Part shown: one piece after another, positions 21,633 to 28,111 of the stretch
Layout: each line of letters begins with the position of its first letter
Position numbering within the stretch: the stretch's first letter is position 1
NCBI RefSeq assembly: GCF_000382185.1
Contig: NZ_KB907784.1
Span: 1,637,633 to 1,701,632, forward strand
Length of the DNA: 64,000 bases
From: Bordetella sp. FB-8
GTDB taxonomy: Bacteria > Pseudomonadota > Gammaproteobacteria > Burkholderiales > Burkholderiaceae_B
Reading direction: 5' to 3'
Notes under the pieces: generated by a model
Databases searched by the model: none
Told to the model about the DNA's origin: nothing
What the model saw: only the letters and a program-made list of their open reading frames with translations
Made by a program: the position numbers and the translations under genes

Positions 21633-23795
21633 ATGACAAATCCGGTTTCCGTTCCCGTCCTGGCCAGGCAGCCTGCCGGCGAACCCCGCTGGTTGCGGGT
21701 GGCGCTTGACGTCCCGCTGCCCGGACTGTTCGATTACCGCTGCGACCAAGACGTCGAGCCGGGCCTGCGCGTCATCGTGTCTTTCGGACGGCGCAAACTG
21801 GTGGGTGTGGTGGTCGAACTGGCGCAGGCGCCGAGCATGGATCCAGCCCAGATCAAGACCGTGGAACGGGTGCTGTACGATCTGCCGCCTTTCGCGCCGG
21901 ATTGGATGCGCCTGGCGCGTTTCGCTGCCGAGTATTACCAGCGGCCGCTGGGCGAGGTCATGCTGCCCGTGCTCCCGCCGCCCTTGCGCAAGCCGTCCTC
22001 TTACCAGGGCAAGCGATCGGGGCTGGGGCCGGTAGCGCGGCGTGACGCGGCGCAAGCCAGGCAGGAGCGCAAGGCGCAGGTTGCCCCCGATCCGGCGCCC
22101 CAGGATGAGCCTCAAACCTTGGCACCGCAAGCATCGGCCTCCCCTATCGCTCAGCCGCCGGCCTTGCACCCTGAGCAGCAGGTCGCGGTGGATGCCATCG
22201 CCGCTTTAAACGGATTCAAGCCCGTGCTGCTGCATGGCGTGACGGGCAGTGGCAAGACCGAGGTCTACCTGCACGCGGCGCAAGCGGTGCTGGCGGCCGG
22301 GCGGCAGGTGCTGTTGATGGTGCCCGAGATCAATCTCACGCCGCAGCTGGAGGCGGCGCTGCGCGCGCGCTTTGAGCCGATCATCGGCGCCGGCGGCCTG
22401 GCCGTGCTGCACAGCGGCCTGGCCGACGGCGAACGCATCGAATCGTGGTCGCGCGTGCAGCGCGGCCAGGCGCGGTTGCTGCTGGGCACGCGCATGTCCA
22501 TTTTCGCGCCTATGCCCGAGCTCGGGATGATTGTGGTCGACGAAGAGCATGATCCTTCCTACAAGCAGCAGGAAGGTCTGCGCTATTCGGCGCGCGATCT
22601 GGCCGTGTGGCGCGCGCACGATCGGGACATTCCGGTGGTGCTGGGGTCGGCGACGCCTTCGCTCGAATCCTGGCAGCACGCCGAACGCGGCCATTATTTG
22701 CGGCTGGCTTTGCAGAACCGCGCGAGCGCCAGCCGGCTGCCCGATGTGCGCCTGGTGGATACGCGCCGCCTGCAGATGAAGCAGGGCCTGTCGCCGCAGT
22801 TGATCGAGGCGCTGGGAGACCGTCTGGCGCGCGGCGAGCAGTCGTTGGTTTTCCTGAACCGGCGCGGCTATGCGCCGGTGCTGCATTGCGGCTCGTGCGG
22901 CTGGGTCAGCCATTGCCCGCGCTGCTCCACGTTCACAGTGCTGCATCGCGTCGAAGGGCGTTCGGCATATCGTCTGCATTGCCATCACTGCGGCTATCAA
23001 GGCACGGTGCCGCGCGCCTGTCCCGAATGCGGCGACCAGGACCTGCTGCCCATGGGGCGCGGCACGCAACGCGTGGAAGAACACCTGGCTGAGCTGTTTC
23101 CGCAGGCGCGGATCGCGCGCATCGATGCGGACAGCACGCGCAAAAAAGGCAGTGCGCAGGCCTTGTTCGCTTCGGTACACGCCGGCGAGGTCGATATCCT
23201 CGTGGGTACGCAGATGGTGTCCAAGGGGCACGACTTCAGGCGGTTGGGGCTGGTCGGCGTGCTCAATGCAGATTCGATGCTGTTCGCCCATGACTTTCGC
23301 GCACCCGAACGTCTTTTCGCGCAGCTGATGCAGGTGGCGGGCCGAGCCGGGCGCCATACGGCGAACGGCGAGGTCATCATCCAGACCGGCTACCCCGAGC
23401 AGCCGGTGTACCAGGCGCTCAAGCGCCACGACTATGCCGGCTTTGCGCGCTACATGTTGCAGGAGCGCGAGGCCACCGGCCTGCCGCCCTATGCCTATCA
23501 AGCCTTGCTCACGGCCGAGGCGCGCGAATTGCAGCAGGCGCTGGCCTTTCTGCAGCGCGCCCGCGACGTGGCCGACCAGGCCGGGCTGCCGGCGCTGGAC
23601 GCGGTGACGCGCTACGATCCCGTACCCCTGCGTGTGGTGCGCGTGGCCCACGTGGAGCGCGCACAGCTGCTGGTCGAGAGTACGCATCGCCCGGCCCTGC
23701 AGGCCTTTCTCACGGCATGGTCGGCGTGGCTGCCTCAGATCGCGGGCGAGATGCGCGTGCGCTGGCAGCTCGAAGTCGATCCCCTGGAAATATGA
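21633..23795 (+). CDS. priA: Primosomal protein N' (replication-restart helicase PriA)
   Basis: This 720-residue superfamily-2 helicase reloads the replisome at stalled forks. The N-terminal DNA-binding part (residues 1-110) is followed by a Pro/Ala/Gln-rich linker near 125-180. The motor holds Walker A G-V-T-G-S-G-K-T-E, the D-E-E-H box, and G-S-A-T-P-S. The zinc-binding insertion shows C-x-x-C pairs (C-G-S-C-G, C-P-R-C, C-H-H-C-G-Y, C-P-E-C-G). The stop overlaps the rep start (ATGATG), so both are translated from one message. Confidence 0.96.
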   Translation: MTNPVSVPVLARQPAGEPRWLRVALDVPLPGLFDYRCDQDVEPGLRVIVSFGRRKLVGVVVELAQAPSMDPAQIKTVERVLYDLPPFAPDWMRLARFAAEYYQRPLGEVMLPVLPPPLRKPSSYQGKRSGLGPVARRDAAQARQERKAQVAPDPAPQDEPQTLAPQASASPIAQPPALHPEQQVAVDAIAALNGFKPVLLHGVTGSGKTEVYLHAAQAVLAAGRQVLLMVPEINLTPQLEAALRARFEPIIGAGGLAVLHSGLADGERIESWSRVQRGQARLLLGTRMSIFAPMPELGMIVVDEEHDPSYKQQEGLRYSARDLAVWRAHDRDIPVVLGSATPSLESWQHAERGHYLRLALQNRASASRLPDVRLVDTRRLQMKQGLSPQLIEALGDRLARGEQSLVFLNRRGYAPVLHCGSCGWVSHCPRCSTFTVLHRVEGRSAYRLHCHHCGYQGTVPRACPECGDQDLLPMGRGTQRVEEHLAELFPQARIARIDADSTRKKGSAQALFASVHAGEVDILVGTQMVSKGHDFRRLGLVGVLNADSMLFAHDFRAPERLFAQLMQVAGRAGRHTANGEVIIQTGYPEQPVYQALKRHDYAGFARYMLQEREATGLPPYAYQALLTAEARELQQALAFLQRARDVADQAGLPALDAVTRYDPVPLRVVRVAHVERAQLLVESTHRPALQAFLTAWSAWLPQIAGEMRVRWQLEVDPLEI

Positions 23796-25954
23796 TGTCC
23801 GCAAGCGATACGCCCATCGGTCACGGCCTGAACCCGTCCCAGAAAGAAGCGGTGCTCTACCTGAACGGCCCTTGCCTGGTGCTGGCCGGCGCGGGCAGCG
23901 GCAAGACGCGCGTGATCACGCAGAAGATCGCCTACCTGCTGCGCGACTGCGGATATATGGGCCGCAATGTGGCGGCGCTGACCTTCACCAACAAGGCCGC
24001 GCGCGAGATGGCCGAACGGGTCAAGACACTGGTCGACCCCAAGCTGGCCAAGGGGCTGACGATCAGCACCTTTCATGCGCTGGGTGTGCGCTTTCTGCGC
24101 GAAGAGGCCGCGCATGCGGGGCTCAAGCCGCAGTTCTCGATCCTGGATTCGGACGATGCCATGGGCATCATCCAGGAGTTGCTGGCCACCACCGATCGCG
24201 GCCGCCTGCGCGAGGTGCAGTCCATCATCTCGCTATGGAAGAACCAACTGGTCTCGCCCGACCAGGCCGCCAACATCGCGCGCACGCCCACCGAAGTCGA
24301 GGCCGTGCAGGTGTACCACAGCTATGCGGTCACGCTGGCGGCCTACCAGGCGGTAGACTTCGACGATCTGATCCGCCTACCCACCGAGGTGCTCGATCGC
24401 GACGAAGCGGTACGCACGCGCTGGCAGAACCGCCTTCGCTATCTGCTGGTGGACGAGTACCAGGACACCAACGCCTGCCAATACCGCCTGGTGCAGCTGC
24501 TGACGGGCATGCGCGCCATGTTCACCGCGGTGGGCGACGACGATCAGGCCATTTATGCCTGGCGCGGCGCCACGGTGGAAAACCTGGGCAAGCTCACCAC
24601 CGACTACCCGCAGCTCAAGCTCATCAAGCTGGAGCAGAACTATCGCTCGGCTCAGCGCATCCTGGCCGCGGCCAATAGCGTGATCGCGCACAACCCCAAG
24701 CTGTTCGACAAGAAATTATGGTCGGATCTGGGCGCGGGCGAGCCCATCACCGTTACGGCCATGGAGGGCGACGAACAGGAAGCCGAGAACGTGGCGATGA
24801 AGATATCGGCCTCGCGTTTCGAGCGTCGCGGACAGTGGAGGGACTACGCGATCCTGTATCGCAGCAACCACCAGTCGCGCGTGCTGGAACAGGCGCTGCG
24901 CAATCTGAAGATTCCCTACACACTCTCGGGCGGGCAGAGTTTTTTCGACAAGGCCGAGGTGCGCGACATCCTGGCCTATCTGCGCCTGGTCGCCAATGGC
25001 CAGGACGATCCGGCCTTCATCCGCGCGGCCACCACGCCGCGACGCGGCATAGGCCAGAGCACCTTGCAGACGCTGGGGCAGTATGCCGCCTCGCGAGATC
25101 TGTCGCTGCTGGCGGCGGTGGACGAGGCAGGCCTGGAAAGCCTGCTCGCCGCGCGCCAGTTGGAACCTTTGCGCACCTTCGCCGAATTCATACGCCGCAT
25201 CCAGTGGCGCGCGGGACGAGGCGCTCAGCAGGCGCCCGAGGGTTTCGCCGCCGGGCCGCCCCAAGGCGAAACAGCCCCCTCGGGGGGCAGCAAGCCGCAG
25301 GCGCAGCGTGGGGGCAACATTATTGCCGCCGAGCCCGCGGGGGCGATTCTCGACGACATGCTGGGTGCGATCCAGTACGAGCGCTATCTCTACGACACGC
25401 TGGAGGAGCGGCCGGCGCAGAACCGCTGGCAGAATGTGCTGGAGCTGACTTCATGGCTCAAGCGCAAGGCCGAGGAAGACGGCTACACGCTGTTCGAGTT
25501 GGTGCAGCACGTGGCGTTGATCACCATGCTCGAACGCGGCGAGGACGAAGAACCCGATGCGGTCAAGCTTTCCACGCTGCATGCCTCCAAGGGGTTGGAA
25601 TATCCGCACGTGTATCTTGCCGGCGTGGAAGACGGCCTACTGCCGCATCTGGGCAAGGACGACGAGGACACCGGCAATGCGGCCCAGGCCGCCGAGGCGT
25701 TGGCGGTACGCATACAGGAAGAGCGCCGGCTGATGTACGTGGGCATCACGCGCGCCCAGCGCAGCCTGCACCTGAGCTGGTGCAAGAAGCGTCGCCGCGC
25801 CCGCGAGGACATCGTGCGCGAGCCTTCGCGCTTCATCGAGGAGATGGGACTCGGGAGCGCGAAGGTGGTCGAAGATGAGACCACCATGGCCATGAGTCCC
25901 AAGCAACGGCTAGATATGTTGAAGGCGCTTTTGAACAAGGGTTCTTACTCATAG
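23792..25954 (+). CDS. rep: ATP-dependent DNA helicase Rep (UvrD family)
   Basis: This 720-residue superfamily-1A 3'-5' helicase removes obstacles ahead of forks. Visible motifs: N-P-S-Q-K-E-A-V (Q motif), Walker A A-G-A-G-S-G-K-T-R, T-F-T-N-K-A-A-R-E-M, D-E-Y-Q-D-T-N, G-D-D-D-Q-A-I-Y-A-W-R-G, Q-N-Y-R-S, and V-G-I-T-R-A-Q-R-S. Two things are odd. An insertion of roughly 40 residues (about 478-518) after R-R-I-Q-W-R-A-G is encoded by a dispersed DNA repeat. And the last two codons and the stop lie inside an IS630 element that entered the original stop codon. Catalytic motifs are intact, so it is probably functional. It overlaps priA by 4 nt. Confidence 0.94.
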   Translation: MMSASDTPIGHGLNPSQKEAVLYLNGPCLVLAGAGSGKTRVITQKIAYLLRDCGYMGRNVAALTFTNKAAREMAERVKTLVDPKLAKGLTISTFHALGVRFLREEAAHAGLKPQFSILDSDDAMGIIQELLATTDRGRLREVQSIISLWKNQLVSPDQAANIARTPTEVEAVQVYHSYAVTLAAYQAVDFDDLIRLPTEVLDRDEAVRTRWQNRLRYLLVDEYQDTNACQYRLVQLLTGMRAMFTAVGDDDQAIYAWRGATVENLGKLTTDYPQLKLIKLEQNYRSAQRILAAANSVIAHNPKLFDKKLWSDLGAGEPITVTAMEGDEQEAENVAMKISASRFERRGQWRDYAILYRSNHQSRVLEQALRNLKIPYTLSGGQSFFDKAEVRDILAYLRLVANGQDDPAFIRAATTPRRGIGQSTLQTLGQYAASRDLSLLAAVDEAGLESLLAARQLEPLRTFAEFIRRIQWRAGRGAQQAPEGFAAGPPQGETAPSGGSKPQAQRGGNIIAAEPAGAILDDMLGAIQYERYLYDTLEERPAQNRWQNVLELTSWLKRKAEEDGYTLFELVQHVALITMLERGEDEEPDAVKLSTLHASKGLEYPHVYLAGVEDGLLPHLGKDDEDTGNAAQAAEALAVRIQEERRLMYVGITRAQRSLHLSWCKKRRRAREDIVREPSRFIEEMGLGSAKVVEDETTMAMSPKQRLDMLKALLNKGSYS
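25242..25314 (+). repeat. Dispersed structured repeat, in-frame copy inside rep
   Basis: The element has an outer inverted repeat GTTTCGCC (25242-25249) / GGCGAAAC (25265-25272) and a GC hairpin GCCCCC (25274-25279) / GGGGGC (25283-25288). The tail GCAAGCCGCAGGCGCAGCGT matches the copies at 18550-18622 and 55705-55778. In the rep frame it reads G-E-T-A-P-S-G-G-S-K-P-Q-A-Q-R-G-G. Confidence 0.75.
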
Positions 25955-27037
25955 GTCAGAAATATAGGCGACACTTGGATGCCGGAAGAACGATCGAACC
26001 AAGTCGGGCCGCTTGGCGATGTCAGACAATTGCGCATGCACGAGGTCGGCCAGCTTTTCGCCTGCCCGCAGCGGGCGGCGCGCCACGCCAGTGCGCTTGG
26101 CGTAGCTCCAGACCAATTCGTCGGGATTCAAGTCCGGCGCGTAGCCGGGAAGGAAGTGCAGTGTCAGCTTGCCCTTGAGGCTGTCTACATACGCGCGCAC
26201 GCCCTTGGTCTTGTGCGCGGGCAAACCATCCACGACCAGATGGATGGGCCGCCGCCGCCCCTTCATCATCTGCCTCAGCAAGTTGATGAACCCTTCGCCA
26301 TTCAGGCCGCCGCGGTAGAGGGCAAACCAGAAGCCGCCCTTGCTGTTGACCGCCGAGGCCGCACTGATGCCCTGCCGCTGCCCAGGCACCGCGACCACCG
26401 GCGTGTGCCCCTTGGCCGCCCACGTCCGGCCCTGCACCGCATCCGCGCGGAAGCCCGATTCGTCCCAGAAATAGATCTCGGCCTTTTCCCGCTTGGCTTG
26501 GCGCACGATCGCCCGATAGGTGCTCTGCTGCCAGTGCGCTACCGCCACCGGGTCGCGCTGGTAGGCCTGCTGCAGCGGCTTCTGCGGCGTCAGTCCGATC
26601 CGGGCCAGCAAGGTGCCCACGCTGGCCAAACTCAATCGAGCACCGAACCTCGTTTCGATCAGTTCGCGCACGATCTGCCGTGTCCACAGCCCGAAGTCGA
26701 AGCCGTATTGCCGCGGGTTCTTGCCGTTGACCCAGCCGAAGACCTGCCTCTCCTGCGCCGCCGTCAGCGTCCGCGGGCGACCCGTGCCTTTGCTCGAAAG
26801 CAGTGCACGTTTGCCATGACCGCGACCACGAGCCTTGGCCAGCACCTTGTAAGCCCAACCACGATGCAGGCCGAACGAGGCGGCCACCGTCGCCGGCGAC
26901 TCGCCTTCCTTCATTCGTTCAAGCGCCACCAGGCGCATCTCTTCCAGCGCCGCCCGGGACACCGTGCGTCCGTCTCTAATCATGTCGGCTTGGACAGCGC
27001 AGAAGGACATTTGTTCCCTAAATTACTGACTTATGAG
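25948..27037 (-). mobile_element. IS630-family insertion sequence (about 1090 bp)
   Basis: Terminal inverted repeats at 25948-25973 and 27012-27037 match at 21 of 26 positions and begin CTCATA. The element is flanked by TA on both sides (25946-25947 and 27038-27039), the target duplication typical of IS630/Tc1 elements. It contains one transposase gene. Removing it and one TA restores the reading ...GGT TCT TAA, so it sits within the rep stop codon. Confidence 0.9.
25949..27010 (-). CDS. IS630-family transposase
   Basis: This 353-residue transposase has an N-terminal helix-turn-helix region (residues 15-60, with A-T-V-A-A-S-F-G-L-H-R-G-W-A-Y-K-V-L) and a winged-helix part near 75-140. The DDE catalytic domain shows Asp in Y-F-W-D-E-S-G-F, Asp in H-L-V-V-D-G-L-P-A-H, and Glu in D-L-N-P-D-E-L-V-W. 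All three acids are present and the frame is intact, so the element may be active. Its stop codon lies in the left inverted repeat, overlapping the end of rep on the opposite strand. Confidence 0.93.
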   Translation of the reverse strand: MSFCAVQADMIRDGRTVSRAALEEMRLVALERMKEGESPATVAASFGLHRGWAYKVLAKARGRGHGKRALLSSKGTGRPRTLTAAQERQVFGWVNGKNPRQYGFDFGLWTRQIVRELIETRFGARLSLASVGTLLARIGLTPQKPLQQAYQRDPVAVAHWQQSTYRAIVRQAKREKAEIYFWDESGFRADAVQGRTWAAKGHTPVVAVPGQRQGISAASAVNSKGGFWFALYRGGLNGEGFINLLRQMMKGRRRPIHLVVDGLPAHKTKGVRAYVDSLKGKLTLHFLPGYAPDLNPDELVWSYAKRTGVARRPLRAGEKLADLVHAQLSDIAKRPDLVRSFFRHPSVAYISDL

Positions 27038-27041
27038 TAAG

Positions 27042-27188
27042 GTCTTTTGCTGTATTCGGCCCTGAGGTCCGGCCGGCTCCGAAGAGTCGGGTTTGGGCGC
27101 CGCCCTAGGCGCCCAAAGTCCCATCGGGACTGCCGCCCCGACTCTTAAGTCGCTCGGCCTGTCCTCAGGGCCGAATACAGCAAAAGAC
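27042..27188. repeat. 147-bp nested palindrome between rep/IS630 and a LysR gene
   Basis: The outer arms are a perfect 26-bp inverted repeat (27042-27067 and 27163-27188). Inside are AAGAGTCGGG (27082-27091) with CCCGACTCTT (27137-27146), TTTGGGCGCC (27092-27101) with GGCGCCCAAA (27108-27117), and GTCCC (27118-27122) with GGGAC (27126-27130). It lies between two convergent genes, so a bidirectional terminator is one reading, but the size and nesting exceed a normal terminator. Confidence 0.9.
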
Positions 27189-27214
27189 TAAGGCTTTATG
27201 CCCGCCGAGAAAGA

Positions 27215-28111
27215 TTAGAACTTCACTTTTGCCGAGAAAGCTTCGAACTCCGCGGTGATCCAGGTCCGGAAGTCCCGCACCTTTTCCGGCATGTTCTCGC
27301 GCTGCGGCCAGACCAGCCAGTAGGGATAGGGATACGGTATGCGCACGTCGGTTATCTGCACCAGCCGACCCTGTTCCAGCAGGTCCGCGACGATGCTGTA
27401 GCGGGTGAGCAGCAGGCCGTGGCCCAGCTCGGCGCAGCCTACTGAGATATTGGAGTCGTTGGCGCGGAACTGGATTTGCTGGACGGGTTCCGGCACGCCG
27501 GCTGCGCGGCACCAGTCTATCCAGGCATTATCGGTTTCGTGCAGGAGTGGACAGCGGATCACCTCGCGCGGCGTGCGGGGCAGTTTGCCGCCCGCGAAAT
27601 TGGGTGCGGCGACCACGAGCGCGACATCCTTGTACAGCCGCTGCTGCGCCAGATTGGGCCAGGGGCCTTGCCCCATGCGTATGCCCACGTCGGCCATGCC
27701 TTGCTGCAGTTCGCTCAGTTCCAGCCCGGTCTGCAGACGGATGCGGTAGTGCGGATGGGCTTGCCGGAATTTGGGCAGGCGCGAAACCAGCCAGTGCAGC
27801 GCCAGGGAATGTAGCGTAGTGATGACCAGTTCGTCTTCTTGCGGGCGGGCTCTGGCCTTGCGGGTGGCGGTCTCGATGTCGCGCAACGCGTCGCGGATCT
27901 CGAGCGCGTAAAGGCGGCCCTCCTCGGTCAGCGTCAGGCCGCGTCCGGCGCGCACGAACAGCGGCACGCCCATGATGTCTTCGAGCAGCTTGATCTGCTG
28001 GCTGATGGCCGAGTGCGTGATGTGCAGTTCGCGCGCGGCGGAAGTGACGCTGCCGAGCCTGGCCACGGCCTCGAAATAGCGCAACGCCGGCAGGGGAGGG
28101 AGATGGCTCAT
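27215..28111 (-). CDS. LysR-family transcriptional regulator (GcvA-like)
   Basis: The 298-residue protein has the LysR helix-turn-helix in residues 1-65 (L-P-A-L-R-Y-F-E-A-V-A-R, S-A-A-R-E-L-H-I-T-H-S-A-I-S-Q-Q-I-K) and a periplasmic-binding-like effector domain from about residue 90. The start P-P-L-P-A-L-R-Y-F resembles the GcvA group. It is divergent from a GST gene across 177 bp and most likely regulates it. The inducer is unknown. Confidence 0.9.
   Translation of the reverse strand: MSHLPPLPALRYFEAVARLGSVTSAARELHITHSAISQQIKLLEDIMGVPLFVRAGRGLTLTEEGRLYALEIRDALRDIETATRKARARPQEDELVITTLHSLALHWLVSRLPKFRQAHPHYRIRLQTGLELSELQQGMADVGIRMGQGPWPNLAQQRLYKDVALVVAAPNFAGGKLPRTPREVIRCPLLHETDNAWIDWCRAAGVPEPVQQIQFRANDSNISVGCAELGHGLLLTRYSIVADLLEQGRLVQITDVRIPYPYPYWLVWPQRENMPEKVRDFRTWITAEFEAFSAKVKF

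Follow-up and report, generated by a model that had tools for sequence, protein, structure and literature searches.

An IS630-family element at TTAA in the stop codon of rep in Bordetella sp. FB-8

In Bordetella sp. FB-8 the reading frame of rep runs into the end of an insertion sequence, which raises the question of how a host gene can come to take its stop codon from a mobile element with its protein almost unchanged, and whether such an event is a freak or the usual behavior of the element. The locus was analysed within a window of 64,000 nucleotides (contig NZ_KB907784.1, positions 1,637,633 to 1,701,632), whose numbering is used throughout. With a probability of about 0.92 we read it as an ordinary TTAA insertion, in which an IS630-family element entered the TTAA at the rep stop and its terminal repeat supplied Tyr-Ser-TAG. 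The target, the duplication, the empty site and a parallel case can all be recognized by sequence comparison.

The element and its junction with rep

The element is 1090 bp long (25948–27037, minus strand) and has TA on either side, and these coordinates and flanks, as given in the first-pass annotation, proved correct when the sequence was read again. The left terminal inverted repeat, CTCATAGGTCAG (25948–25959, plus strand), and the right one, CTCATAAGTCAG in the minus-strand reading (27026–27037), are identical at 11 of the 12 terminal bases. A single open reading frame on the minus strand (25949–27010) encodes a transposase of 353 amino acids, which scored 222.5 bits with the curated IS630 model NF033545 (cut-off 100), and which also matched the Pfam domains DDE_3 (PF13358; 7.4e-36, 123.6 bits versus a cut-off of 28.6) and HTH_33 (2.5e-18). 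The scores above the curated cut-offs of NF033545 and PF13358, together with the presence of inverted repeats, bear out the earlier assignment to the IS630 family. In this family about 34 residues separate the second D and the E of the catalytic D, D, E triad; in the transposase the candidate residues D183, D261 and E298, placed by motifs only, have 36 residues from the second D to the E. Piggybac-like elements, which are defined by a 4-bp TTAA duplication and a piggyBac-type transposase, were also considered, and this assignment was rejected because only TA is duplicated and the transposase is of the IS630 type.

The rep gene (23795–25954, plus strand) encodes a UvrD/Rep-family DNA helicase of 719 amino acids with Pfam matches to UvrD-helicase (6.6e-84) and UvrD_C (3.2e-67), and its best NCBIfam model was TIGR01074 rep, with 837 bits, which is under the cut-off of 951 for this model. 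The gene ends ...AAG GGT TCT TAC TCA TAG, and its final two codons (Tyr-Ser) and the TAG lie inside the element, so that the insertion turns the rep stop from TAA to TAG. The left inverted repeat contains both this TAG (25952–25954) and, on the opposite strand, the transposase stop TGA (25951–25949), and the two frames overlap tail to tail by 6 nt (25949–25954). Both the addition of Tyr-Ser to Rep with a TAG supplied by the IS end and the 6-nt overlap had been claimed before, and they are directly legible in the sequence, with both stops placed in the same repeat. The left copy of the duplicated TA (25946–25947) is preceded by a T, and the right copy (27038–27039) is followed by an A; on the basis of the empty sites in two congeners, G009 and G013, these outer bases belong to the original TTAA target.

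According to the proposed mechanism, an IS630 element with TTAA as its target, of which TA is duplicated, inserted where the last base of the Ser codon and the TAA of rep form this site. As the inverted repeat starts with CTCATAR, the split stop continues in frame as TAC TCA TAG, and Rep gains Tyr-Ser and ends there; a host gene ending in the repeat of the element in this way overlaps the transposase gene tail to tail. The chemistry is presumed to be cut-and-paste transposition by analogy with ISY100, a member of the IS630-Tc1-mariner superfamily, which shares the IS630/DDE_3 transposase, the short terminal repeats and the duplicated TA, and for which one paper describes cut-and-paste transposition by the transposase alone (PMC2170065). 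A host stop supplied by an IS inverted repeat is also described for IS1272 in a helicase gene of Staphylococcus aureus, in a paper that names an inverted repeat-replacing mechanism in its title (PMC5678879). That case differs from the one in rep, because there the protein is truncated, while here the native stop was split and the protein is almost unchanged.

The genome search found one other full copy of the element (L002, 1504–2593), which differs at 5 of the 1090 positions, and one partial match of 38 bp. A second near-identical copy would be compatible with an assembly error that joined a repeat copy to rep. However, the two copies differ at these five positions, the TTAA context of the rep copy agrees with that in relatives, its flanks are collinear with those in IS-free relatives, and the contig is 4.08 Mb long, which makes such an error extremely improbable. 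The L002 copy lies within a LysR-type regulator gene, which it interrupts at AAGT-TA-AATC; before the element, this gene encodes the LysR helix-turn-helix (1.1e-19) and the first part of the substrate domain. The transposases of the two copies have two residue differences (163 and 166). Two further matches, with 71% DNA identity to the element over 883 and 190 of 1096 bases, were noted in a genome of the same order (L005 in G034:C60 and L009 in G034:C13).

The rep stop in congeners

A search of 14 other genomes from the genus matched rep in every one, and the 3′ end of the gene was read in 14 of 14. In the two closest congeners, G009 and G013, which are IS-free, rep ends ...GGT TCT TAA and ...AGT TCT TAA, respectively, and after the stop both continue with GGTCTTTTGC, which equals the window sequence after the right-hand TAA. 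Because the ...TCT TAA end is followed by the same downstream DNA, a natural empty site is seen in these relatives, and the comparison of the filled site with it upholds the suggestion that a TA duplication split the rep stop TAA. The congeners with these empty sites are other species of the genus, and a Ser-TAA end is shared only by these two closest ones. The expectation in the first-pass annotation that IS-free relatives end at the same Ser-TAA was thus borne out by G009 and G013, but not by the other 12 of the 14 congeners, in which rep ends in Lys-TAA (eight genomes), Pro-Ser-TGA (three genomes: G012, G004 and G011) or Asp-TAG (one genome, G008).

The C-terminus of Rep is naturally variable, with 0–2 residues beyond the last shared Lys in the IS-free proteins of the genus. 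This variation, and the 12 of 14 congeners without a Ser-TAA end, could also fit an alternative explanation, in which rep formerly had its end at another position, its stop within the IS is secondary, and the resemblance to a split TAA arose by coincidence. We find this explanation hardly credible, because rep of G009 and G013, the nearest relatives without the element, stops precisely at the Ser-TAA that the insertion would have split, with identical downstream sequence. As Rep already varies by 0–2 residues among the IS-free members of the genus, the two extra residues are probably tolerated, and the addition of Tyr-Ser to the variable tail was probably neutral. The previous description of the insertion as benign is plausible in this light.

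The rep gene also contains, further upstream, an in-frame stretch (25243–25335) in which 23 to 27 residues are without counterpart in the aligned congeners. This stretch matches a GC-rich palindromic dispersed repeat present in 24 other places of the genome, including four tandem copies at G000:C1:2523710-2524025. The Rep protein of G009 retains just a tail-like piece of it (PQAQRGG), which suggests that the repeat was inserted in the common ancestor with G009, and that it was later partly lost there.

TTAA as the target of related elements

The relatives of the transposase were taken from the best 80 of 347 places, several of them from the same genomes, together with the L002 copy. From these 81 rows, nine without a usable end or flank (L012, L022, L041, L043, L046, L053, L057, L086 and L089) and the duplicate L066 (identical to L061) were removed, and with the rep copy added there were 72 unique sites. 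The data showed that the element was preceded by TTA and followed by TAA at 66 of the 72 unique insertions from this set, which includes both copies of the genome; in the flanks of the same 72 insertions, TTAA accounts for 276 of the 9760 TA dinucleotides. The pattern used to find the ends required TA beside each end, so that TA on both sides is present at 72 of 72 sites by construction, while the outer T and A were left unconstrained. The six sites that are not TTAA (L026, L056, L065, L073, L085 and L088) vary exactly in the outer T or A next to the TA, which shows that these outer bases belong to the target. As regards the dropped rows, the element lies between TTA and TAA at L012 and L043, and TA is missing from the left side of L046.

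The TA/TA flanks of the relatives were not counted as a test of the duplication, and the conclusion that TA is the duplicated part is based on the empty rep sites in G009 and G013. A search for ends without the TA requirement was used as a check only; in this search the arms extended through TTA...TAA and further outward, which gave a flanking-TA count of 0, and they included TTA in most rows, with one row (L019) plainly spurious. This overrun is explained by the fact that TTAA is itself palindromic. Judged by these flanks, TTAA is the usual target of the relatives of the element, and the event in rep is no freak.

Relatives on plasmids were represented by 10 examined among 40 listed, with 1096 matching records. 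Those at 60–66% identity had TTA and TAA beside the element in four of four cases examined. At about 40–42% identity (Pandoraea, Aromatoleum, Azotobacter and Cupriavidus) the same was observed in three of five, with ends that are less certain, and the tenth relative, from Rhodococcus, had no clear ends. The IS885/ISAzo33 plasmid group, with about 40–42% transposase identity, is similar to the element in its length of about 1100 bp and in the TTA/TAA context at three of the five sites examined, while it differs in its inverted repeat, which begins with CTAA; the ends in this group were chosen by repeat score, and a register a few bases inward had a score at least as high at L153 and L158. The TTAA preference seems to be characteristic of a broad branch within the IS630 family, and TTAA can be read as the target of this branch. 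On the other hand, IS630 itself, from Shigella sonnei, prefers CTAG according to the title of a reference in PMC2170065, and it is said to target NTAN in PMC5678879, which is different from the TTAA preference of the element described here and its relatives. ISHsp2 of Halomonas sp. ZM3 is another IS630-family element at TTAA, for which the authors report a 4-bp TTAA duplication and a transposase encoded by two frameshifted ORFs, in contrast to the TA duplication and the single ORF observed here (PMC3606827). In the portions available of open-licence papers, we found no mention of a TTAA preference in this IS630 branch, nor of stop codons restored by it.

Stop codons, gene ends and the downstream hairpin

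Because the target is TTAA, stop codons in the context NNT-TAA are predictable landing sites, a link that was absent from the first-pass annotation, and occasional insertions in stop codons are expected from an element that seeks TTAA. A strict 4-bp target in this way turns particular stop codons into regular places of insertion. In the GC-rich window, a rough prediction of genes gave 56, of which 3 end in T-TAA, and 3 of the 31 TTAA sites serve as stop codons of predicted genes.

A parallel case was found in a beta-proteobacterial MAG (L071), where the gene of an M3 oligopeptidase (Pfam 4.4e-137) reads TCT TAC TCA TAA into a related element. Its protein, P0121, ends in TPSSYS, while the nearest homologue among the matches listed, P0122 (92% identity), ends in TPSS. 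P0122 likewise has 686 amino acids, but with two extra residues at the N-terminus, and 93 of the 120 homologues listed have 684 amino acids. A site in Cupriavidus necator A5-1 (L036, 5039–5539) was rejected as a stop-codon case, because its DUF1294 protein, which ends in FYS, has 169 amino acids versus 191 in the nearest full homologues; there a related element removes 24 residues of a cold-shock/DUF1294 protein and supplies a stop after Tyr-Ser.

The two exact stop-codon insertions, in rep and in the M3 oligopeptidase gene, and the strong hairpin just 3′ of rep could suggest a host-sparing strategy, with specific targeting of stop codons, the 3′ ends of genes, or hairpins and terminators. Sites at which a frame of 100 codons or more ends were nominally more common among insertions (7 of 63) than among other TTAA sites (14 of 198), which were those with flanks of at least 400 bases in the same flanks; the insertions were likewise limited in this comparison, and the unlimited count was 7 of 71, with L033 left out for its short left flank. 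The proportion was higher at insertions at all three cut-offs, but the excess was within chance at 100 codons (Fisher p 0.30), at 150 codons (6 of 63 versus 9 of 198, p 0.21) and at 60 codons (8 of 63 versus 20 of 198, p 0.64). The frame calls were mechanical, with the candidates inspected among insertions and not among control sites, and only two of the seven stop-codon candidates were verified, one of which, rep, was the seed, while the other was L071. The candidate L056 was rejected, because its junction, CTA/TAT, contains no stop, and the frames at L010, L028 and L075 (at least 100 codons) and at L042 (63 codons) had no Pfam match. The flanks of insertions folded more stably by 1.7 kcal/mol, with a mean of −21.3 at 71 sites versus −19.7 at 242 other TTAA sites, a difference of about 2.1 standard errors between widely overlapping distributions. 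The interrupted LysR gene and the truncated DUF1294 protein at L036 also argue against a host-sparing strategy, and we consider specific targeting of this kind highly unlikely. A small excess at stop codons may exist, but these counts point to no clear excess over other TTAA sites. The stop-codon insertions that are still visible may have been favored because they do little harm.

The layout of the element itself explains the overlap at the rep junction. In the set derived from the best 80 of 347 places, the transposase stop TGA falls within the terminal four bases in 71 of 72 elements, and the tail-to-tail overlap is a by-product of this layout. Annotators should hence expect gene pairs that end within a shared IS repeat, which falsely resemble an evolved overlap. 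In the same set, bases 5–7 of the element form TAA, TAG or TGA, in frame after TAC TCA, at 62 of 144 ends, and both ends carry such an in-frame stop in 27 of 72 elements, so that this property is common, not universal. Together with the two exact cases in different hosts, these numbers hint that selection could keep the CTCATAR repeat, because hits in NNT-TAA would then give a harmless Tyr-Ser-stop, in either orientation if the motif is at both ends. If true, this would describe an IS630 branch with a built-in use of stop codons as low-cost landing sites; we regard such selection as very unlikely.

The hairpin downstream of rep is 149 nt long (27041–27189) and very stable (−113.5 kcal/mol, z −13.5), and it is located between rep and a convergent LysR gene (27215–28111). 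In the IS-free G009, whose contig carries the first part of the hairpin, it starts directly after rep, and the insertion sets about 1.1 kb between them. The hairpin contains no T-run and was not listed by the terminator scan, in which the rep strand was free of terminator-like sites between 25700 and 27250. It may nevertheless end the transcripts of both rep and the convergent LysR gene, and transcription from rep may now continue in antisense through the transposase gene. In G013 only a short form of the hairpin is present, and in Bordetella sp. FB-8 the inner part of the hairpin is found again at three further positions of the genome.
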